Source of the DNA: Deltaproteobacteria bacterium
Lineage (GTDB): Bacteria; Desulfobacterota; Desulfuromonadia; Geobacterales; Pseudopelobacteraceae
Length of the DNA: 33,793 nucleotides
Direction: 5' to 3'
Assembly: GCA_021778115.1 (NCBI GenBank)
Contig: JAJYCS010000021.1
Coordinates: 1-33,793, forward strand
Shown: piece after piece, positions 11,681-25,597 of the stretch
How positions within the stretch are numbered: position 1 is the stretch's first letter
How the letters are laid out: each line of letters opens with the position of its first letter
The notes under the pieces: model-generated
Databases searched by the model: none
The model's input: the letters and a program-made list of their open reading frames with translations, nothing else
What the model was told of the DNA's origin: nothing
Program-made: the position numbers and the translations under genes

Positions 11681-13732
11681 CTACATCCTGCTTAAGAGCG
11701 GCACGATCAGGAGCGACACGATGTTGATGATCTTGATCATCGGGTTGACGGCCGGGCCGGCGGTATCTTTATAGGGGTCGCCAACGGTGTCGCCGGTTAC
11801 GGCTGCCTTGTGGGCATCGCCGCCCTTGCCGCCGAAGTAGCCGTCTTCGATGTATTTCTTGGCGTTATCCCAGGCACCGCCGCCAGTGGTCATGGAGATG
11901 GCTACGAAGATGCCGGTCACGATGGTGCCGACGATTACACCACCCAGGGCTTTGGGACCCAGGGTGAAGCCGATGACGATCGGCGCGGCGATCGGGATGA
12001 TGCCGGGGATGATCATCTCTTTGAGGGCGGTCTTGGTGACGATATCCACGCAGGAGGCGTAGTCCGGCTTGCCGGTGCCTTCCATGATGCCCGGAATCTC
12101 GCGGAACTGTCGACGGACCTCTTCAACCACCGAGCCGCCGGCCTTGCCAACCGCTTCCATGCACTGGGCAGCGAAATAGTAGGGTAGCATGCCTCCCAGG
12201 AAGAGGCCGACGATGATGTACGGGTCGGAGAGGCTGAAGTCGATCATCCGGCCCGCTGCCTTGAGCTCATCCACATAGGAGGTGAACAGGATGACGGCGG
12301 CCAGTCCGGCGGAGCCGATGGCGTAGCCCTTGGTCACCGCCTTGGTGGTGTTGCCCACGGCGTCCAGGGGGTCGGTGACGGCCCGGACCGTGTCATCAAG
12401 CTCCGCCATCTCGGCGATGCCGCCGGCGTTGTCGGTGATCGGGCCGTAGGCGTCCATGGCCACCACGATGCCGGTGAGCGAGAGCATGGAGACGGCGGCG
12501 ATGGCGATGCCGTACACCCCGGCGCAATTGAAGGCCACGATGATACCGGCGGCGATGACGATAACCGGCAGGGCGGTCGACTTCATGGAGACTCCCAGGC
12601 CGGCGATGATATTGGTGGCGTGGCCGGTGGTGGAGGCCTGGGCGATATGCTTGACCGGGCCGTACTCGGTGGCGGTGTAGTACTCGGTGATCCAGAAGAT
12701 GGCGCCGGTCACCACCAGGCCGACGATGGCGGAGATGAAGATGCTCATGGCGGAGAAGGTCTGACCGTCGGTGTTGGTAAGCCCCTGCGGGAACATCTGG
12801 TTGGTCACGACGTAGAAGGCGATGCAGGCCAGGACGCCGGAGGCGATGAGCCCTTTGTAGAGGGCCGGCATGATTTTTTTACTGCTCCCCAGTTTCACGA
12901 AGAAGGTGCCGATGATGGAGGCGATGATGGAGATGCCCCCCAGGATCAGGGGATAGCTGGTTGCCCCCGGCGTGCTGCCGAAGGCGATGGCCCCCAGTAG
13001 CATGGCGGCGATCAGGGTCACGGCATAGGTCTCGAACAGGTCGGCGGCCATGCCGGCGCAGTCGCCCACGTTATCACCTACGTTGTCGGCGATCACGGCC
13101 GGGTTGCGGGGGTCGTCCTCGGGGATGCCGGCCTCCACTTTGCCTACCAGGTCGGCGCCGACGTCGGCCCCCTTGGTGAAGATGCCGCCACCCAGACGGG
13201 CGAAGATGGAGATCAGCGAACCGCCGAAGCCCAGGCCCACCAGCTGGCTCACCACCTCTTTAACCGGTGCATCCGGCATCAGCCGCTGTAGTACGAAGTA
13301 GTAGCCGGCCACCCCGAAAAGGCCCAGACCCACCACCAGCATGCCGGTGATGGCACCCCCCCTGAAGGCGACGTTCAAGGCCTTGTGGATGCCTGATTTG
13401 GCGGCCTCGGTGGTGCGGATGTTGGCGCGGACGGAGACGAACATGCCGATGAAGCCGGTGAGGCCGGAGAAGAGGGCGCCGATGGCGAACCCGATGGCGG
13501 TCTTCATACCCAGGGTTGCCGCCAGAGCCACGAACATGATCACGCCCACTACGGCGATGATGGTGTACTGACGCCTCATGTAGGCGCTGGCCCCTTCCTG
13601 TACCGCTGCGGCGATCTGCCGCATCCGCTCGTTACCCTGGGGCAGCCCCAGGATCCACTGTGCCGAAATCAGACCGTAGGCAACGGCTGCCACGGCGCAG
13701 GCCAGGGCAAAATAGACTGCGTACTGTTCCAT
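11681..13732 (-). CDS. hppA: Membrane-bound proton-translocating pyrophosphatase
   Basis: A 683-residue integral membrane enzyme that couples pyrophosphate hydrolysis to proton (or sodium) export. The PPi/Mg site is seen in [36 protein letters not shown] and [12 protein letters not shown], and again in [14 protein letters not shown] with [14 protein letters not shown] near the end. The segment [10 protein letters not shown] has Lys where K+-dependent enzymes have Ala, and Thr where they have Gly, so a K+-independent, proton-pumping form is expected. The start MEQYAVYF (13732) has GGGAG upstream; the longer frame is unsupported. It stands alone with its own promoter. Confidence 0.95.
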
Positions 13733-13825
13733 GCTCTGAATCTCCCTCGGTTGGATTGAAATGGGCGGCCCGGGTGTGGAGGCCACGTATGGATTCGATC
13801 AGCAGTGTACACAAAAAAACAAATT

Positions 13826-14830: not shown

Positions 14831-15598
14831 ATGTATGACAACAAAAGAATGTCGCTTTTAATCATTGAAAAAACTTTCCACGCGTTGGAACTGATCTCTT
14901 CTGCAGCGGAGCCACAAACAGTTCAGTCGCTAGCCAGCCAACTGCACATGGGACAAGATCGAACTCATACCTTGTTGAACCACTTAACGAAGCGAGGTTT
15001 TTTAGATAAGGACAAGGGAAATAGCAGCTATCGAATCGGGGTCCGCTGCATAAGTTTTGCCCAGATTATTACCAGCAACCTGACCTTTCTCAAATATGCA
15101 CGACCCATAATGCAGAGCCTCGAAAAAGAACATGATGAGGCAGTCTATATCGCTGTACTGAAAGAAACGGATGTGATCTTCCTTGACATGGTTGATACCG
15201 AACAACCGGTCAAGGTACCGGCCCTGGTGGGCCGCCGTTTCCCCTTTTTCTCAAATGCTGCTGGCAAGGTCATAGCAGCATGTGAACCACGCGATTATCT
15301 ACAGCGATACCTGGAAAAAATTGGTCGTAAACGTCCAGCAGTTGATTTTGATAACTTTCAGCAGGAACTGCTCACGATCAGGAACTTGGGGGTGGCGGTG
15401 GACAACGATGGATTGGGTGAACAGATTACCAGTGTCGCGGTTGCCATTAAAGACTATGCCGGCAAGGTACTCGGGGCCTTAGCCTTAATCGGACCAACGG
15501 CTCGTATGGTTGGTGAACGGCTCGAACGGGAAATAATTCCTTCCATGGTTACCAGCACCCAGTTGCTTTCATCCCGCTTTGGTTATGCTGCACCATAA
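14831..15598 (+). CDS. IclR-family transcriptional regulator
   Basis: A 255-residue regulator of usual family length. Residues about 8-70 form the winged helix-turn-helix (LIIEKTFHALELISSA, TVQSLASQLHMGQDRTHTLLNHLTKRGFL). Residues about 80-250 form the IclR effector domain, with the signature segment around PALVGRRFPFFSNAAGKVIAA and VAVDNDGLGEQITSVAVAIKD. GGGGG lies upstream of the ATG at suitable spacing. It lies just before an acetate permease pair on the same strand, so it probably controls that permease in response to a small carboxylate; the ligand is inferred from context. Confidence 0.92.
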   Translation: MYDNKRMSLLIIEKTFHALELISSAAEPQTVQSLASQLHMGQDRTHTLLNHLTKRGFLDKDKGNSSYRIGVRCISFAQIITSNLTFLKYARPIMQSLEKEHDEAVYIAVLKETDVIFLDMVDTEQPVKVPALVGRRFPFFSNAAGKVIAACEPRDYLQRYLEKIGRKRPAVDFDNFQQELLTIRNLGVAVDNDGLGEQITSVAVAIKDYAGKVLGALALIGPTARMVGERLEREIIPSMVTSTQLLSSRFGYAAP

Positions 15599-15634
15599 AA
15601 AAATCAGAAGCTTACTTCGACGAAAGGAGGTGTG

Positions 15635-15699
15635 ATGATTTTCAAAGGTAGTACATGAGGCGCAACATGAAAAATGCAGGCCAATGTTCAAACCTATGA
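15635..15699 (+). CDS. Two tiny overlapping leader ORFs before the permease genes
   Basis: AAAGGAGGTGTG, a near-perfect Shine-Dalgarno, precedes an ATG at 15635 encoding MIFKGST and a TGA (15656-15658). A second ATG (15655) overlaps that stop by ATGA and encodes MRRNMKNAGQCSNL, ending at 15699, 13 nt before the DUF485 start. The very strong ribosome site on such a short frame suggests it is translated and may couple or tune the permease genes. It could instead be the decayed 5' end of a longer gene. Confidence 0.4.
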
Positions 15700-15712
15700 A
15701 AAGGAGGAAGTT

Positions 15713-16024
15713 ATGTCAGTAGCAGATAATGCGAAGATTCAAAGTAATCCCAAATTCCATGCCCTTGTTAAACGACGCAATGCACTCGGTTGGATACTTT
15801 CAATCATCGAATGCATCATGTATTTCGGCTTTACCCTGATGATCGCCTTTGCGCCGGACGTTCTGACGGCGCCCATTGCCAGTGACAGCGTCATTCCGTT
15901 CGGCATGATTCTGGGTGTCGGTATCATTGTTGTTTCCTGCGTACTCACCGGTATTTATGTGTATCAGGCGAACAATACGTTTGATCCCATCGTTCACGAA
16001 ATTATCGAGGAGGCATCCAAATGA
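15713..16024 (+). CDS. DUF485 membrane protein, acetate permease partner
   Basis: A 103-residue inner-membrane protein of the DUF485 family. Two membrane helices are seen, about residues 25-50 ([22 protein letters not shown]) and 63-85 ([22 protein letters not shown]), with the family motif FHALVKRRN before the first and [14 protein letters not shown] after the second. Such genes (yjcH in E. coli) stand directly before actP, as here, where the stop overlaps the permease ATG by ATGA. AAGGAGGAAGTT gives a strong start at 15713; the longer in-frame start at 15674 is not needed. Confidence 0.9.
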
Positions 16025-17733
16025 AACAGTTGAAAGCCGCTTTCTCTGCTCTTCTGTCATCAGCTGTACTGTTTGCCGCCCGTACCGGGAGTGCCATGAC
16101 CGTTGACTCCGGCCCTGCAGCGCCGGCCCCGGCAGCGCCTCCCCCCGTCAACTGGCACGCCATCAGCATGTTTGTCATCTTTGTTGGCATTACCCTGGTT
16201 ATTACCTACTGGGCAGCAAAACACACCAAAAGCGCTACCGACTTTTACGCCGCCGGCCGCGGCGTCACTGGCCTCCAAAACGGTATGGCCATTGCCGGCG
16301 ACTACATGTCGGCAGCCTCCTTCCTGGGTATTGCGGCCCTGGTCTACATGAACGGCTTCTACGGCCTGATCTTTTCGGTGGGCTGGCTGGTGGGCTGGCC
16401 GATTATCCTGTTCACGGTTGCCGAGCGTCTGCGTAACCTGGGTAAATATACCTACGCCGACGTGGTTTCCTTCCGCCTCAAGCAGGGGCCGGTACGGACC
16501 ATGGCAGCCATTGGTGCCCTGATCGTCGTGGTCTGGTACTTGATCGGCCAGCTGGTGGGCGCAGGTCAGCTGCTGCACACCCTGGTGCCGCAGATCTCCT
16601 ACCGCATCTCCATCACCATCGTCGGTATCCTGATCATGCTCTACGTTACCTTGGGCGGTATGAAGGCTACGACCTGGGTGCAAATAATCAAGGCCGGCCT
16701 GCTCTTGGGCGGCGCGACGATTATGGCACTGGGGGTTATGTTTCATGAAGGCTTCAGCTTCGCCAAACTCTTTAGCGATGCCGTTGCCCTGCACCCCAAA
16801 CACCTTGCCATCATGAAGTCGGTGGTGCCGATCGGCGCCAAGGCCAACCCGATCGAGTCGATTTCACTTGGTTTGACGCTGATGTTCGGTACCGCCGGTC
16901 TGCCCCACATCCTGATGCGCTTCTTCACCGTGACCGACTCAAAGGCTGCGCGCAAATCAGTGCTCTACGGTACCTGCTTTATCGGCTACTTTTATATCCT
17001 AACCTTCATCATCGGCTTCGGCGCCATAGTACTGGTCGCCAACAACCCACAGTATGTGGTTGATGTGACCAAGAACATCCTGGCCCTGAAAGGCGGCCTC
17101 AACATGCCGGCCGTCTACCTGGCCCATGCCGTTGGCGGCGACTTCTTCCTCGGCTTCATCGCTGCGGTGGCCTTTGCCACCATCCTGGCGGTGGTTTCCG
17201 GCCTGACCATGGCCGGCGCCTCGGCCCTGTCTCACGACCTGTATGCCCAGGTCTTCAAAAAGGGCCAGGCCACTGAGAAGGACGAAGTCATGGTCTCCAA
17301 GATCAGCTGCATCGGCTTCGGTATTCTCTCCATCCTGCTCGGCATCGCCTTTGAAAAGCAGAACGTGGCCTATATCGTGGCGCTGACCTTCTCCATTGCT
17401 GCCTGCACCAATTTCCCGATCCTGGCGCTGTCCATTTTCTGGAAAGGACTGACTACACGCGGCGCCGTGGTTGGTGGCTATGTAGGTATCTTCGGGTCCA
17501 TCATACTGCTGCTGATCGGACCGACGGTCTGGACAAAAATTCTCAAGATGGGTCCGGCCATCTTCCCGTTGGACTTCCCGACCATCGTTATCCTGCCGCT
17601 GGTACTGATTGTTGCCTATGTTGTCTCGGTAACGGATAGCAGTGAAAGCGCCAAGCAGGAGCGGGCTGCCTTTGATGCCCAGAAGCTCCGTGCAGAAACC
17701 GGCATCGGCGCTGAGAAGGCTGCTGTACACTAA
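16021..17733 (+). CDS. actP: ActP-type acetate/cation symporter (SSS family)
   Basis: A 570-residue sodium:solute symporter. The N-terminus has a cleavable-looking or first helix ([22 protein letters not shown]) and a Pro/Ala linker. The SSS core includes the family segments [31 protein letters not shown] cut across about residues 75-105, [17 protein letters not shown], and [13 protein letters not shown]. About 13 helices can be counted. With its DUF485 partner and upstream IclR gene it is the uptake system for acetate or a similar monocarboxylate, the main electron donor of Geobacter-like organisms. A strong terminator follows. Confidence 0.93.
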
Positions 17734-17979: not shown

Positions 17980-19770
17980 ATGAACAGTTCACTAGACCTT
18001 GGACTCATTGGCAACGGCACCATTAGTGCGTTGATTGACAAAAATGCCGAAATTGTCTGGTGTTGCCTGCCTCGCTTTGATGGAGACCCCACCTTCTGTT
18101 CGTTGCTGCGCGAACACACTAACCATGACGGATTCGGTTATTGCGGTATCGAGCTGATAGAACAGATTATCACCGAACAGTATTACGAGCCCAATACCGC
18201 CATCCTTGTCACTCGGCTCACTGACGCCCACGGCGCAGTAGCCGAGGTCATTGATTTTGCTCCACGTTTTCGACAATACGACCGCATCTTCACCCCGATG
18301 ACCTTAATCCGCCAGATCCGCCGACTGCAAGGGACACCGCGTATACGCCTTGTGGTCCGACCAGCTTACGACTATGGCCGAGAACGTTGCACCACCACCT
18401 CCGGCAGCAACCATATCCGTTATATCGGCTCAGGCTTGGTTTTACGCCTTACCACCGATGCCTCACTCACCATGCTACAGGAAGAGCGTCCTTTTTTCTT
18501 GGAGGATACGGTTACCCTGATATTTGGAGCCGACGAAACCATACCGAGTAGCATTACTGAACTGGCTCAACGCTTTCATCAAGAGACAAGTACCTACTGG
18601 CGCGGATGGGTACGTGACCTTGCTATTCCCTATGAGTGGCAGGAAGAGGTCATTCGGGCAGCAATTACCCTAAAATTAAACACCTTTGAGGACACCGGGG
18701 CGATTGTGGCGGCTATGACTACCTCTATCCCTGAAGCAGCCAACACGGAGCGCAACTGGGATTATCGTTACTGCTGGCTCCGGGACGCCTACTTTGTGGT
18801 TAATGTATTGAACCGACTCGGCGCCACCCACACCATGGAGCGCTATCTTAGCTATCTCACCAATCTGGTGGCTGGCGCTCCTGGCGGACGGATTCAGCCT
18901 GTCTATGGAATTAGCGGCAAAGCCAGGCTTGAGGAACAGATGATAGACACTCTGCCAGGTTACCGTGATATGGGGCCAGTACGGGTAGGCAATCAGGCCT
19001 TTGAACAGGTGCAACACGATGTTTACGGCTCGGCAATCCTGGCGGTCACACACATATTCTTCGATCGACGACTGCTACGTTGCGGCGATGTCGCGCTCTT
19101 TCAGCGCCTTGAATCGCTGGGAGAAACCGCCCGGCAGGTCTACGACCAACCGGATGCCGGGCTCTGGGAACTGCGCGGCAGTTCTCGAATTCACACATTC
19201 TCCAGCGTCATGTGCTGGGCAGCCTGTGACCGTTTGGCATTGATTGCACAACAATTAAAACTTAACGACCGGGCCATGTACTGGCGGCACCATGCCGATC
19301 AGATCTACACGGTGATCTATAGTCGCGCTTGGAATGAACGAAAACAGTCATTTGTGGCATCCTTCGATGGTGAGGCCATGGATGCCAGCCTTCTGTTGTT
19401 ACACGACATCGGTTTTCTCTCAGCGGACGACCCCAATTTTGCCGCCACGGTAGCTGCTGTTGAAAAGGAACTCAAACGTGGGGACTATGTCTACCGCTAT
19501 GTTGAGGCTGATGACTTCGGCAAACCGGAGAACGCCTTTGTTGTCTGCACCTTTTGGTATATTCATGCCTTGTCTGCCTTGGGCAGAATAGATGAAGCCC
19601 GTAACCTTTTTGAAAATCTGCTGGCCAAACGCAACCACCTCGGTTTGCTGGCAGAGCATATCAATCCTGTGAGCGGAGAGCAGTGGGGTAACTTTGTCCA
19701 AACTTACAGCATGGTAGGGCTGATTAACGCGGCCATACGGCTGAGCAGACGCTGGGATGTTGCATTCTAA
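17980..19770 (+). CDS. Glycoside hydrolase family 15 (glucoamylase/trehalase-like)
   Basis: A 596-residue cytoplasmic enzyme that hydrolyses alpha-glucosidic bonds. The bacterial GH15 N-terminus (LGLIGNGTISALIDKNAEIVWCCLPRFDGDP) forms the beta domain. The (alpha/alpha)6 barrel has the general-acid region in RNWDYRYCWLRDAYF and the catalytic-base region at LLAEHINPVSGEQWGNF near the C-terminus. It has no signal peptide. It is upstream of otsA and otsB, so the substrate may be trehalose or a glucan linked to trehalose turnover. GH15 enzymes acting as trehalases are known in actinobacteria; the substrate here is inferred. The ATG at 17980 lacks an obvious ribosome site (GAGTTAG upstream). Confidence 0.88.
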   Translation: MNSSLDLGLIGNGTISALIDKNAEIVWCCLPRFDGDPTFCSLLREHTNHDGFGYCGIELIEQIITEQYYEPNTAILVTRLTDAHGAVAEVIDFAPRFRQYDRIFTPMTLIRQIRRLQGTPRIRLVVRPAYDYGRERCTTTSGSNHIRYIGSGLVLRLTTDASLTMLQEERPFFLEDTVTLIFGADETIPSSITELAQRFHQETSTYWRGWVRDLAIPYEWQEEVIRAAITLKLNTFEDTGAIVAAMTTSIPEAANTERNWDYRYCWLRDAYFVVNVLNRLGATHTMERYLSYLTNLVAGAPGGRIQPVYGISGKARLEEQMIDTLPGYRDMGPVRVGNQAFEQVQHDVYGSAILAVTHIFFDRRLLRCGDVALFQRLESLGETARQVYDQPDAGLWELRGSSRIHTFSSVMCWAACDRLALIAQQLKLNDRAMYWRHHADQIYTVIYSRAWNERKQSFVASFDGEAMDASLLLLHDIGFLSADDPNFAATVAAVEKELKRGDYVYRYVEADDFGKPENAFVVCTFWYIHALSALGRIDEARNLFENLLAKRNHLGLLAEHINPVSGEQWGNFVQTYSMVGLINAAIRLSRRWDVAF

Positions 19771-19929: not shown

Positions 19930-22176
19930 GTGGTGTTTGACATGAAATCAAAATTTTCGTTGAGATCCCTACATCTTTCACTGCGGTTTGTACTTCCGCT
20001 GGTTATCGCCTTGGGACTGCTGGCCTACGCTATCGTACCGCTGGTTGACCATTTGACCTTGAAATGGGCAGCCAGAGATCTTGACAGCCGTTCTCATCTC
20101 CTGAGCAGCACGCTCCAGGACCCACTGGGCGAACTGGTGATGCAAAAAAACCGCAGCAAAATTATTTCATTACTTCAAAAAGCAACCCAAGATGAACGTC
20201 TCATGGCTTTGGGAGTCTGCGACAGCGATAACAAACTGATCTACCGCACAACTCCCTTCCCCAAACAGATATCTTGTAAACCCGATGAATCCGAACTGAT
20301 ACAGAAAAACCAGCTGATTCGTCTCCCCCAAGGCCCAGTACATATCGTCAGGGACCCTCTTGTATTTGGAAACACTCCCATCGGTTCGCTGATACTGGTC
20401 CACGATATGAGCTACGTTGAACGCCGTAGCGCCGATACAAAGAAATATCTGATCATACTTTTTGTGGTGCTTGGGGTGGTGATCTCACTGATCACGGTAT
20501 TAGTCGCCCACCTGAGCTGGCGTGGCTGGATGGAAGGCGCGCGGGCCATCATGCGGGGAGAGGGAATTTTCCGCCCGTTCAGCCAAACAGCAGCTACCGA
20601 ACTACAGCCGCTAGTTTTCGAGATGCGAACGATGCTCCGCAATCTTGAGGCCGAACGCCGACATGCCGACGATATGACAATGGTCTGGGATCCGGCAGCC
20701 TTGAGAGGGTTATTGCAGAAGCAACTCGCAGGGGACGAAGTGTTGGTAGTTTCCAACCGAGAGCCTTACATTCATGAACAGGGCCCTCAGGGGATTGTGG
20801 TGCATCGGCCGGCCAGCGGTCTGGTGACGGCAGTGGAGCCAGTAATGAGGGCCTGCTCCGGCACTTGGATCGCTCACGGCAGTGGTTCGGCAGATCGTGA
20901 AACCGTTGACAAGAACGACCGGGTGGGCGTCCCCCCACAAAAACCTGAATACAACCTGCGGCGCATCTGGCTAACCCCTGAAGAGGAACAAGGCTATTAT
21001 TATGGCTTTGCCAATGAGGGATTTTGGCCTCTCTGCCACAATGCGCACGTACGGCCCATCTTCCGTAGTACCGATTGGGACTGGTATCAAAAAATCAACA
21101 AACGCTTTGCCGACGCCGTAGTACGGGAAGCACGCAGCGATGATCCGGTAGTTCTGGTTCAGGATTACCACTTTGCTCTGCTGCCGGCACTCATACGGCA
21201 ACGTCTGCCCAAAGCAACCATCATAACCTTTTGGCATATCCCTTGGCCCAACCCTGAATCGTTTGGCATCTGCCCCTGGCGTGAGGAACTGTTGCAAGGA
21301 ATGCTGGGCAGCACCATTCTGGGATTCCACACCCCATTTCACTGCAAAAATTTCCTGGAGACCGTGGATCGTTACCTGGAAACCCGCATCGAACACGAAT
21401 CCTCCACCATCTTCCACAGCGGCCAACTGACAATGGTAGAAGATTATCCGATCTCTATCCAGTGGCCTCCTGAGTGGCAAGGGCTCTTGCCTCCGGCTGA
21501 CCAAACCCGCAATGAGATTCTCGCCGAACTGGAGTTGCCGCAAACCTATCTGTTGGGGATCGGCGTCGACCGGATGGATTACACCAAAGGTATTCTTGAA
21601 CGGTTCACCGCAGTTGAACGGATGTTCGAGTTGCACCCTGAGCTGGTGGGACGGTTTAGCTTTGTTCAAATAGCCGCTCCCAGCCGCTCTGCCCTGGATG
21701 AATACCAAGCCTTTGAACAACGAGTGCATGCCTTGTCCAACCGGATAAATAAGCGCTTCGCACGGGCGATCATACTTAAGGCCGCACACCATACCAGTGA
21801 GCAGGTGACCCGCTACTACCGTGCAAGCAACGTCTGCATGGTGACCAGCCTGCATGACGGCATGAACCTGGTGGCAAAAGAATACGTGGCAGCACGTGAC
21901 GACGAACAGGGCGTGCTGATTTTAAGCCAATTCACCGGCGCGGCCAATGAACTGCATGAAGCACTGATTGTGAATCCATACCATGTGGAACAAACTGCCG
22001 AGGCACTCTATCAGGGATTGACCATGCCAGCATACGAACAGCAGGAGCGGATGCGCAGCATGCGGGCTTTGGTACAAGATTTCAACGTCTATCGCTGGGC
22101 CGGTAGAATGCTCTTGGATGCGGCGCGCGTACGACAACGAGAAAAGCTGGCGGCAAGGATAGGAAGGCCCCTGTGA
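19930..22176 (+). CDS. otsA: Trehalose-6-phosphate synthase fused to a membrane-anchored sensor-like region
   Basis: A 748-residue protein against about 470 for ordinary OtsA. A helix at about 17-40, a 130-residue loop (probably outside the membrane), a second helix at about 172-194 and a HAMP-like linker precede the GT20 domain (about 270-735). GT20 motifs: [77 protein letters not shown] and [11 protein letters not shown]. It makes trehalose 6-phosphate from UDP-glucose and glucose 6-phosphate; a related glucosyl-phosphate product is possible because the usual GGL loop is SGL followed by AHGSGSADR. The start is uncertain: GTG at 19930 or 19933, or ATG at 19942. The otsB GTG overlaps its stop. 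Confidence 0.88.
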
Positions 22177-22925
22177 TATCACTACTAACCCCCGAAGGAC
22201 TGGAAGCACTACTACCCGTGGTGACCCCTAACACCCTTTTTGCCTTTGATCTTGACGGCACCCTGGCCCCGATTGTTGACGATCCGCAAGCGGTAATCGT
22301 ACCTGAAACGATCCGTACCAGCATGATACAACTTGCAGCACGAGTTCCTACTGCGGTCATTACCGGCCGTGCCCGCGGTGACGCCCTATCCCGCTTAGGC
22401 TTTACACCACGCTATCTAATCGGTAACCACGGCAATGAAGGTCTTCCCAACAAAGCAGCTGGTATTACGGAAGAGCAACTCATCAAAAGCTGGTACAGAC
22501 AGCTACAAGCTCTGCTTCCTCCCCCAACTCGTGACGAGATACTTTTTGAAGATAAAGGTAGCTCTCTCGCATTGCACTACCGACATGCATCAGATACGTC
22601 AACAGTCCATGCAGCCTTGCTAACGGCGATAGCACAACTCAAGCCTCAACCTCGAAGAATAGGAGGTGTTTTTGTTGAAAACCTCATCCCCCCGTGGGCT
22701 CCTCATAAAGGTGACGCCTTACTGTATCTCATGGATAACGCAAAAAGCGAACGGGCGTTCTTTCTGGGAGATGACGAGACCGATGAAGATATTTTCCGGC
22801 TTAATGATGCACGCATCTTTTCGGTTTGCGTAGGGACAGGACGTCCCACAGCAGCCCGTTATTACCTTAAGAATCAGTCAGAGACAGCCAACCTACTGCA
22901 GATGCTGCTAAACGTCCTAGTGTAG
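22173..22925 (+). CDS. otsB: Trehalose-6-phosphate phosphatase
   Basis: A 250-residue HAD-family phosphatase that converts trehalose 6-phosphate to trehalose. The nucleophile motif is FAFDLDGTLAPI, motif II is VITGRA, ENLIPPWAPHKGDAL contains the motif III lysine, and motif IV is FLGDDETDEDIF. The start is GTG, overlapping the otsA stop (GTGA), with AGGAAGG upstream within otsA. Translation is therefore coupled and the two enzymes should be made in matched amounts. Confidence 0.93.
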   Translation: MISLLTPEGLEALLPVVTPNTLFAFDLDGTLAPIVDDPQAVIVPETIRTSMIQLAARVPTAVITGRARGDALSRLGFTPRYLIGNHGNEGLPNKAAGITEEQLIKSWYRQLQALLPPPTRDEILFEDKGSSLALHYRHASDTSTVHAALLTAIAQLKPQPRRIGGVFVENLIPPWAPHKGDALLYLMDNAKSERAFFLGDDETDEDIFRLNDARIFSVCVGTGRPTAARYYLKNQSETANLLQMLLNVLV

Positions 22926-22969
22926 AGCAAATCAGCACATTTCTTTTGAAACAAAGGAGAAACTGTAGA

Positions 22970-24337
22970 ATGAAACGACACCTCACCGAGCAGGCGACCC
23001 TCTTTGCCAGCGTCATCAAATGGGCCTGCTACGCCACCATCATCGGCATTCTGGTAGGATGCGGCACCACCATTTTCCTGCAGACGCTTGCCTGGACCTC
23101 GGCCAAGGTAACGACGTTTCCGTATTATTATCTGTTTCTCCCACTGACGCTCCTGGTCTGCAGTGCCCTGATCCGCTGGCTGGCCCCCGATGCCGCCGGC
23201 CACGGTACCGAGAAGGTGATCGAGGCGGTACATAAGCGGATGGGCAAGATATCGTTCGCCGTAATCCCGGTAAAGCTCGTGGCCACCGTAATCACCCTGG
23301 CCGGTGGCGGCTCGGCGGGCAAAGAGGGACCGGCTGCCCAGATCGGCGCCGGGTTGGCCTCTGCCTTTGCCGATCTGCTGCGGGTTGAGGATATCGACCG
23401 TCGTAAAATGGTGATCTGCGGTATCAGTGCCGGTTTTGCCACCGTGTTCGGCACTCCGGTAGCCGGGGCCATCTTCGGGGTGGAGGTGCTGGTGCTGGGT
23501 CAGCTATTCTACGACGTACTGTTCCCCTCCTTTATGGCCGGCATTGTCGGCTATCAGGTGGCACTGCATCTGGGCGGGGTCTACCCCTACTTCACGGCGC
23601 CGCTTCTCCCTATCTTCACCGGCCGCAACCTGCTTGAGGTCATTCTGCTGGGGGTGTGGTGCGGCCTGGTGGCGCTCTTCCTGATTGAGAGCATGGACTA
23701 CGGGCACCGGACCTTTCACAACCTCCGCTGGCATTGGACGGTCAAACCGTTGCTGGGCGGAGTGCTCTTGATCGCCATCGCCCGCCTGATCTCACCAACC
23801 TATCTGGGGCTGGGTCTCGACACCCTGTCAAAAGGTATGAGTGGCGGTGTCATTCCCGCGGGCGCCCTGTTCTGGAAGGGTATCGCCACCTCCATCACCT
23901 TGGGCAGCGGCGGCAGTGGCGGTGTGGTAACGCCGGTCTTTTTTGTCGGCACCTCGGCCGGCAACCTCTTTGCCCAGCTGTTCAACCCCCAGTACCTGGC
24001 CGCCTTTTCCGCCATCGGCATGGTGGCGGTGCTGGCCGGTGCCGCCAATACGCCGATCGCCGCATCGGTTATGGCCATTGAGCTATTCGGCACCGGCATC
24101 GCCTCCTATGCCGCCCTGGCCTGCACCATCAGCTATCTGATCTGCGGCTACCGCAGTATCTACGGCAGCCAGCTGGTAGGCAGCCAGAAGAGCGGGTCAC
24201 TGACTGTCCCCACCGGTGTCGCCGTGGCCGACCTGACCGGTGTCACCTACCAGTCACGGCCTACCTCATTGATCGGCCGCATCAAGGGGATCAAGCGGCG
24301 CAGGAATCAGTCTCCACCCTCTTCCGCACCGTTGTGA
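22970..24337 (+). CDS. clcA: CLC-family chloride channel or transporter
   Basis: A 455-residue CLC membrane protein with no C-terminal CBS domains. The gating glutamate is present in GGGSAGKEGPAAQIG. The usual first selectivity motif GSGIP is replaced by AGHGTEK. In the segment aligned with FIIEEM of E. coli ClcA this protein reads IFGVEVLV, so the inner proton glutamate (E203) is Val, as in vertebrate CLC channels (FSIEVT). It may therefore be a passive channel or a weakly coupled exchanger. The ATG at 22970 has AAAGGAG upstream; the earlier TTG is unlikely. It is 44 nt after otsB, so probably co-transcribed. Confidence 0.9.
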   Translation: MKRHLTEQATLFASVIKWACYATIIGILVGCGTTIFLQTLAWTSAKVTTFPYYYLFLPLTLLVCSALIRWLAPDAAGHGTEKVIEAVHKRMGKISFAVIPVKLVATVITLAGGGSAGKEGPAAQIGAGLASAFADLLRVEDIDRRKMVICGISAGFATVFGTPVAGAIFGVEVLVLGQLFYDVLFPSFMAGIVGYQVALHLGGVYPYFTAPLLPIFTGRNLLEVILLGVWCGLVALFLIESMDYGHRTFHNLRWHWTVKPLLGGVLLIAIARLISPTYLGLGLDTLSKGMSGGVIPAGALFWKGIATSITLGSGGSGGVVTPVFFVGTSAGNLFAQLFNPQYLAAFSAIGMVAVLAGAANTPIAASVMAIELFGTGIASYAALACTISYLICGYRSIYGSQLVGSQKSGSLTVPTGVAVADLTGVTYQSRPTSLIGRIKGIKRRRNQSPPSSAPL

Positions 24338-24370: not shown

Positions 24371-25522
24371 TTATTGTTGTTTTTTAGTTACTCCGACGAG
24401 ACGTCCGGCCACCAGGCCGAGCAATGCCGCCACCAGGCTGAGCATGGCCCCCATCTTTGCCGCCCCCTGGACAAAAGGATCGGTAAAGGCCTCGCCGGCC
24501 ACAAACAGGGCCACGGTAAAGCCGGTGCCGGCGATGACCCCGGCGGTCAGCAGGTCGCGCCGGCCCATGCCGTGGGGCAGGGGAAAACCGAATCGTGTGG
24601 CGAACCAGCCAAGGGTATAAATGCCGCAGGCCTTGCCGACGATCAGCGCAACGAGCACCAGGACGGTCACCGTGCCGATGCTGGAAAACGCCACTCCGGC
24701 GTTGGCCAGGCTGAACAGGAACAGGCCAAAATCCACCACCACCTTCCATTCCTGCTCAAAACGGGCGAGGGGGGTACGATCGTGCCGGTCCTCCTCGAAG
24801 AGGCGTTTGTGTTCCCGTTGTGCGTGGGGGAGGAAGGGGATGATGAACACCAGGGCCAGGGCCGGGTGCAGGTGGGCGTTGTGGAGGCCGAACCAGCTTA
24901 AGGAGCCGCCGAGCAGCAGGTACGGCCAGTAGCTGTGGAGGTGGAGACGGCGCATGAGATAGGCGCTCACCATGCCGGCAGCGGTCAACAACAGCCAGAC
25001 CGGCGCCACCGGGTGGAGGGGATCGGGGTAAAAAATGGCGATGATCGCCAGGCCTATGGCATCATCTGCCACGGCCAGCAGCAGGAGGTAGGAGACCGCC
25101 GGGTGCTTCGCCCCGAACACCAGGCGGGCTGCGAGCCAGGCCAGGGCGATGTCGGTGGCGGTGGGGATTCCCCAGCCGTGATGCAGCGCCGGGCTGCCGA
25201 TGCAGCGGTTCAGGAGGAGGTAGACCGTGATCGGGCCGATGACGCCGCCGATGGTGCCCAGGAGCGGGTTAACCGCCCGGGAGAGCGGATGCAGATCCCC
25301 GCCGGGTAGGCAGCTCTGGGTGATCTCCACCGCGGCGATGCCGAAGAACAGCACCATGAATAGCTCGTTGGCGATGAAATGGAAGGAGAGGCCGCCGACG
25401 AGGGGGGCGTGGTTGAACCGCTCATAGCCGGTGGGGCTCAGGTTGGCCCAGGCGACGGCCACCGCCACTCCGGCCAGCAGGGGGACGGAAAACTCGCGCA
25501 GCAGGTTCAGATGGCGTTTCAT
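24371..25522 (-). CDS. nhaA: Na+/H+ antiporter NhaA
   Basis: A 383-residue inner-membrane antiporter of normal length that expels Na+ in exchange for H+. The ion-binding pair is in LLLAVADDAIGLAII, with PTATDIALAWL before it and the ELFMVLFFGIAAVEI segment near residue 50. The ATG at 25522 follows AGGGGGC; the longer frame to 25564 lacks similarity to the family. It is convergent with clcA with only about 33 bp between stops and no clear terminator, and lies 75 bp downstream of the CBS protein gene on the same strand. Confidence 0.93.
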   Translation of the reverse strand: MKRHLNLLREFSVPLLAGVAVAVAWANLSPTGYERFNHAPLVGGLSFHFIANELFMVLFFGIAAVEITQSCLPGGDLHPLSRAVNPLLGTIGGVIGPITVYLLLNRCIGSPALHHGWGIPTATDIALAWLAARLVFGAKHPAVSYLLLLAVADDAIGLAIIAIFYPDPLHPVAPVWLLLTAAGMVSAYLMRRLHLHSYWPYLLLGGSLSWFGLHNAHLHPALALVFIIPFLPHAQREHKRLFEEDRHDRTPLARFEQEWKVVVDFGLFLFSLANAGVAFSSIGTVTVLVLVALIVGKACGIYTLGWFATRFGFPLPHGMGRRDLLTAGVIAGTGFTVALFVAGEAFTDPFVQGAAKMGAMLSLVAALLGLVAGRLVGVTKKQQ

Positions 25523-25597
25523 GCCCCCTGTTGTACCACAGCCGGCGGCCGGTGAAAAGGCCACTCTGGACCGGGGCCGGTGCCCTGACGGCGGTTG

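Follow-up and report, generated by a model that had tools for sequence, protein, structure and literature searches.

A predicted transmembrane sensor-enzyme joining a Cache-type domain to a GT20 trehalose-6-phosphate synthase

Introduction

Receptors built from Cache and HAMP parts drive kinases, chemotaxis, and enzymes of nucleotide signaling. In the kinases WalK (YycG), CitA, DcuS, and DctB these parts follow the order TM - Cache - TM - HAMP, where TM is a transmembrane helix. In LapD and the HAMP-coupled GGDEF/EAL receptors, a periplasmic domain is linked through TM and HAMP segments to a cytoplasmic output. Transmembrane receptors with enzyme outputs are already known. Known OtsA enzymes are soluble. 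To our knowledge there is no earlier example of a metabolic GT20 enzyme as the output of a transmembrane receptor. In the literature searched, in which subscription journals are thinly covered, no bacterial trehalose-6-phosphate synthase is described as bound to the membrane or fused to a sensor.

The gene described here lies in a 33,793-nucleotide stretch of DNA from a member of the Geobacterales, called the window below. The first-pass annotation of this stretch described a receptor-like N-terminus (a helix, a loop of about 130 residues, a second helix, and a linker) joined to a trehalose-phosphate synthase. Hydropathy, the Pfam GT20 match, and the recurrence of the architecture in 26 of 57 related genomes agree with that description. 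On the sampled tree, this familiar receptor input was joined to a metabolic enzyme, a glycosyltransferase, a single time, and none of the sampled descendants has lost it. Should the sensor gate the enzyme, the protein would be a direct outside-in switch for compatible-solute production in bacteria. It would also offer a simple system for studying how HAMP-type linkers control a non-signaling enzyme, and a candidate for a fast osmotic response in metal-reducing bacteria.

The gene and its enzyme domain

The reading frame is uninterrupted from GTG 19930 to 22176 on the forward strand. ATG 19942 is the likelier start, which gives a gene at 19942..22176 (+) encoding 744 aa; GTG codons at 19930 and 19933 are alternatives. 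Because relatives align at ATG 19942, residues are numbered from it.

The C-terminal part of the protein, residues 248-744 (20683..22173, +), is a trehalose-6-phosphate synthase domain of GT20 type, which opens with a helix of its own. PF00982 is the sole Pfam domain over cut-off (E 1.9e-110, 370 bits against a cut-off of 32.5) and spans residues 270-730 of the 748-aa reading. The GT20 motifs also align with those of the PDB relatives 5jij and 6jbi. In E. coli numbering, we take the catalytic and ligand residues of OtsA to be R9, G22, Y76, W85, D130, H154, R262, K267, D361, and E369. Matched to this set by motif, by eye, R273, G293, Y353, W362, D408, H432, R544, K549, D639, and E647 are invariant in all 27 full-length rows.

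Scores against both the OtsA equivalog TIGR02400 (392 bits, cut-off 565) and the GgpS model TIGR02398 (285 bits, cut-off 569) fall short, and the enzyme is therefore assigned to a distinct GT20 group. The motif SNREPY marks this group; the higher-scoring GT20 enzymes of the phylum are mostly SNRLP-like. The adjoining OtsB gene suggests that the product is trehalose-6-phosphate (T6P). The window's assembly, which is 99% complete, contains a single GT20 gene. TreS and TreY were considered as other trehalose routes and set aside, as the assembly has no match to the former and none over cut-off to the latter.

The N-terminal sensor region

A simple Kyte-Doolittle hydropathy scan, from which the TM helices were called, finds exactly two hydrophobic helices ahead of the GT20 domain. 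TM helix 1 comprises residues 17-35 (19990..20046, +) and TM helix 2 residues 170-188 (20449..20505, +). About 130 residues separate them, and a linker of about 60 residues follows.

Most of the loop, approximately residues 39-165 (20056..20436, +), is predicted to form a periplasmic Cache/PAS-like sensor domain. Structure prediction of residues 1-265, a check suggested with the first-pass annotation, points to such a fold, with WalK and CitA as its nearest relatives. The AF2 model (4 sequences, pLDDT 71) has helices at 7-68, which contains TM helix 1, at 71-81, and at 211-247, a long helix at 157-204, and strands at 87-94, 99-102, 125-128, 131-142, and 145-155. It thereby shows the long N-terminal helix, short helix, and antiparallel PAS-like sheet that define a Cache fold. 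WalK ranks first in Foldseek, with a model of the protein and with its extracellular domains, ahead of the LapD orthologue CdgS9 (4u64), KinD, CitA, and DctB. In VIA-align, WalK (4ywz_B) reaches Z 10.9 with an rmsd of 2.5 A over 118 aligned residues, and CitA, LuxQ, and DcuS lie at Z 8.6-9.9.

Sequence comparison was extended to a more distant group of N-termini, which is homologous to the close group (hhalign 99.8%). A profile of 16 distant members, using sequence only, matches WalK 5is1 (E 1.3e-4) and KinD (0.0055). Single distant members also match Cache families in Pfam: sCache_3_2 in 5 of the 16 (best E 2e-5, under the cut-off) and dCache_3 in 4 (best E 1.9e-8). In the same kind of domain search, neither the window protein nor any of the 27 close members gave a Cache family in Pfam. 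Searched by sequence against the PDB, the close N-terminus by itself returned one chance match (E 0.85) and otherwise none. Pfam matches to YesK, Adeno_E3B, and SMP_2 were dismissed as chance matches to helices. Given the fold matches by AF2, Foldseek, and VIA, the profile matches to WalK and KinD, and the Pfam matches in single distant members, the loop is most likely a Cache-type sensor domain, nearest to those of WalK and CitA.

Cys93 and Cys112 are both kept in 28 of 29 close-group rows (both are missing in L110), and the pair is absent from the distant group. Where present, it fits a periplasmic disulfide. One relative of the same family, L050 (G022:C55), carries an in-frame GSSQIGSSEVGSS-type repeat insertion within the periplasmic domain.

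The linker, residues 189-247 (20506..20682, +), was delimited by alignment and is helical in the AF2 model, with low confidence at 208-222 and 245-249. The first-pass annotation had called it HAMP-like. Its position fits this name, and by eye the distant group clearly shows two amphipathic helices after TM2 with the P..G..E spacing of HAMP type. In the window group, however, this pattern is degenerate, and the first linker helix of close relatives lacks the HAMP proline. The Pfam HAMP model (PF00672) gives no backing, matching one of the 16 distant members at E 0.028 and being absent from the families of the 27 close ones. Together with TM helix 2, the linker is well conserved in the alignment of relatives. 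A full-length AF2 model (3 sequences, pLDDT 44) is too poor to give the geometry of sensor and enzyme.

Translation of the N-terminus

A soluble enzyme would result if translation began internally, near residue 248, where sensorless relatives begin. The window offers some ground for this reading, since a Shine-Dalgarno-like motif is missing at its 5' start but precedes an internal TTG that lies 13 codons ahead of SNR. The alignment speaks against it. Within the last 50 codons before SNREPY, no in-frame start position is common to more than 16 of 45 sensor-bearing rows. Some internal start with a Shine-Dalgarno-like motif occurs in 17 of the 45, at scattered positions, whereas the 5' start has such a motif in 33, the window being among the other 12.

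Protein-level constraint points the same way. Between the window and 20 relatives, pN/pS is 0.24 in TM helix 1, 0.41 in the periplasmic part, 0.26 in TM helix 2, and 0.31 in the linker, compared with 0.18 in the GT20 domain. These values indicate that the N-terminal region is translated in this frame. The internal start near the GT20 domain that was to tell against the first-pass reading was accordingly not found as a conserved feature, and an internally started, soluble working enzyme is highly improbable.

Distribution and evolution

The full-length architecture is found in 27 rows from 26 of 57 related genomes, the window included, at 70-84% identity for those outside the window. Three of the 57 have defective matches (two broken, one with an insertion) and 28 have no match. 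A search with the profile of the close N-termini covered 395 genomes of the window's phylum and matched 34. In four of these (G201, G218, G347, and G328 at C49) the match is confined to the beginning of GT20 and the frame has 506-514 aa; a fifth (G178) is cut by a contig end. GT20 itself occurs in at least 165 of the 395 genomes.

A tree was built from GT20 domains with the sensor columns omitted. Its 67 rows, 45 with the sensor and 22 without (6 of them the outgroup), are a chosen, non-exhaustive set. It comprises the window, 60 other loci, and, among the matches listed, 6 of 30 GT20 loci with higher scores (L067-L096). G178, which is cut by its contig, G022, which carries an insert, and G227 are omitted, as are 7 of the 27 full-length rows. 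All 45 sensor rows form a single clade (support 99/97) with no sensorless row inside it, and the presence of the sensor needs one change on the tree, as it does in 100% of 200 bootstrap trees. On this phylogeny the sensor appears to have been gained once, with no loss among the sampled rows.

The nearest relatives of the sensor clade are sensorless SNREPY enzymes, and 16 sensorless rows belong to the same GT20 group. Since these enzymes start with the helix that immediately precedes SNREPY, or close to it, the joint of the fusion is placed at about residue 248. Apparent N-terminal extensions of L134 and L151 were rejected as domains, as they resemble upstream frames of high-GC DNA. One genome, G047, holds two sensor-OtsA copies, G047:C2 and G047:C32 (L114 and L115), which come from different branches of the clade.

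Among 72,556 plasmid records, none covers 80% of the query. Plasmid pAA02 of Aminobacter aminovorans encodes an SNREPY protein (L065, 3842-5659) with one TM helix, a short linker, and no periplasmic domain. This protein is apparently a simpler, membrane-anchored form.

Gene neighborhood

The stop codon of the sensor-OtsA gene is overlapped by a gene for OtsB, the trehalose-6-phosphate phosphatase (22173..22925, +; TIGR00685, 99.5 bits, cut-off 68.05). Beyond it lie a CLC chloride channel or transporter (22946..24337, +; PF00654, E 1.5e-73) and an NhaA-type Na+/H+ antiporter (24371..25564, -; PF06965, E 3.1e-60). Upstream is a GH15 enzyme resembling trehalase or glucoamylase (17980..19770, +; PF00723, E 1.4e-51, with TREH_N), which scores 309 bits against the TreH1 model, less than its cut-off of 820. 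By their predicted functions, OtsB, GH15, CLC, and NhaA would make up an osmotic or ionic module.

Parts of this neighborhood recur. OtsB is present in 34 of 40 relatives' loci, in 30 of them on the same strand and at most 400 nt downstream, and GH15 in 14. A CLC, NhaA, CPA exchanger, or MscS gene lies near sensor-OtsA in 18 of the 40 loci and in 15 of the 20 closest, compared with none of 20 similarly sized control windows, taken from 15 of the same genomes and from close relatives only. The Fisher p-values against these controls (2e-4 for 18/40 and 8e-7 for 15/20) flatter the case, because the families were picked after they had been sighted in the test loci.

Other genes were seen nearby. 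A DUF389 membrane protein, which may be part of the osmotic module, occurs in 8 of the 40 loci and in none of the 20 controls. It lies between GH15 and sensor-OtsA in L101 (9048-10733), L102 (8256-9857), and L104 (4380-5972). The window also encodes a membrane ion-translocating pyrophosphatase (11681-13786, -), a further ion-gradient gene near the cluster. Upstream of GH15, at 14831-17733 (+), are an IclR regulator, a DUF485 protein, and an ActP-type acetate symporter; similar genes are found near sensor-OtsA in L109 and L112.

Proposed mechanism and alternatives

The protein is probably a transmembrane one-component sensor-enzyme with a Cache input and a GT20 output. Its architecture, its translation and constraint, the modeled sensor fold, the single sampled origin, and the trehalose and ion-transport neighborhood all back this reading. 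The identity of the signal, the direction of control, and the allosteric coupling are inferred, as is control of the enzyme from outside. The periplasmic Cache-type domain, anchored by two membrane helices, would receive an extracytoplasmic cue and relay its state through the HAMP-like linker to the cytoplasmic synthase. The product of the overlapping gene, OtsB, would then complete trehalose. A cue linked to salt or water stress could in this way change T6P synthesis quickly, with neither a kinase nor new transcription. Cache and HAMP parts act as dimers that shift TM2, and a GT20 enzyme closes around its UDP-glucose. As the N-terminal helix of GT20 directly follows the linker, the shift could be passed on to the first loop of the active site.

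The main rival holds that the N-terminus is a mere membrane anchor, placing the T6P synthase near transporters or OtsB, and that the signaling role of the sensor fold was lost or never present. This is rather unlikely. It would account for the weak HAMP match and for the single-helix Aminobacter relative in the same GT20 group, and it draws on the periplasmic domain being the least conserved part. The periplasmic part evolves faster than TM2 and GT20, as is usual for ligand-facing sensors. A pure anchor need not retain a folded Cache domain, paired cysteines, and a conserved TM2 and linker, yet no loss is seen among the 45 sampled sequences.

A reading in which the fusion senses a non-osmotic cue, such as a small organic acid, an ion, or periplasmic redox through Cys93 and Cys112, is quite possible, if short of probable. 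It overlaps the sensor-enzyme explanation, the one concerning the identity of the signal and the other the mode of control. The nearest folds include sensors of citrate and C4-dicarboxylates (CitA, DcuS, DctB), and the strongly conserved cysteine pair would suit redox sensing. Because the distant group lacks these cysteines, redox cannot be the general signal, and the neighborhood suggests salt and water stress instead. Osmolarity as the signal is a guess from that neighborhood (NhaA, CLC, MscS, Na+/H+ exchanger, OtsB, and GH15). More speculative, and somewhat unlikely, is a whole family of "osmo-enzymes" in this phylum, among Geobacter and its relatives. In such proteins a Cache domain in the periplasm would gate the synthesis of a compatible solute directly from across the membrane, an osmotic response within one polypeptide that uses no kinase, second messenger, or transcription.

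Comparison with known systems

The window enzyme resembles the OtsA/GT20 enzymes of E. coli and Mycolicibacterium and fungal Tps1 in GT20 sequence, conserved motifs, and adjoining OtsB. It differs from known OtsA in its transmembrane sensor module and in its OtsA equivalog score, given above. The Aminobacter protein (WP_083948901.1) shares 54% identity in GT20, the SNREPY motif, and an N-terminal TM helix with it, but has no periplasmic domain, second TM helix, or HAMP-like linker.

With WalK, CitA, DcuS, and DctB the window protein shares the TM - Cache - TM - HAMP-like order, and WalK is its closest match both in fold and by profile. In contrast to Cache sensor histidine kinases, its output is a biosynthetic glycosyltransferase rather than a kinase, cyclase, or chemotaxis module. 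LapD-type receptors are represented among the fold matches of its sensor by CdgS9. LapD and the GGDEF/EAL receptors make, break, or bind signal nucleotides, whereas the window enzyme is predicted to make a sugar phosphate.
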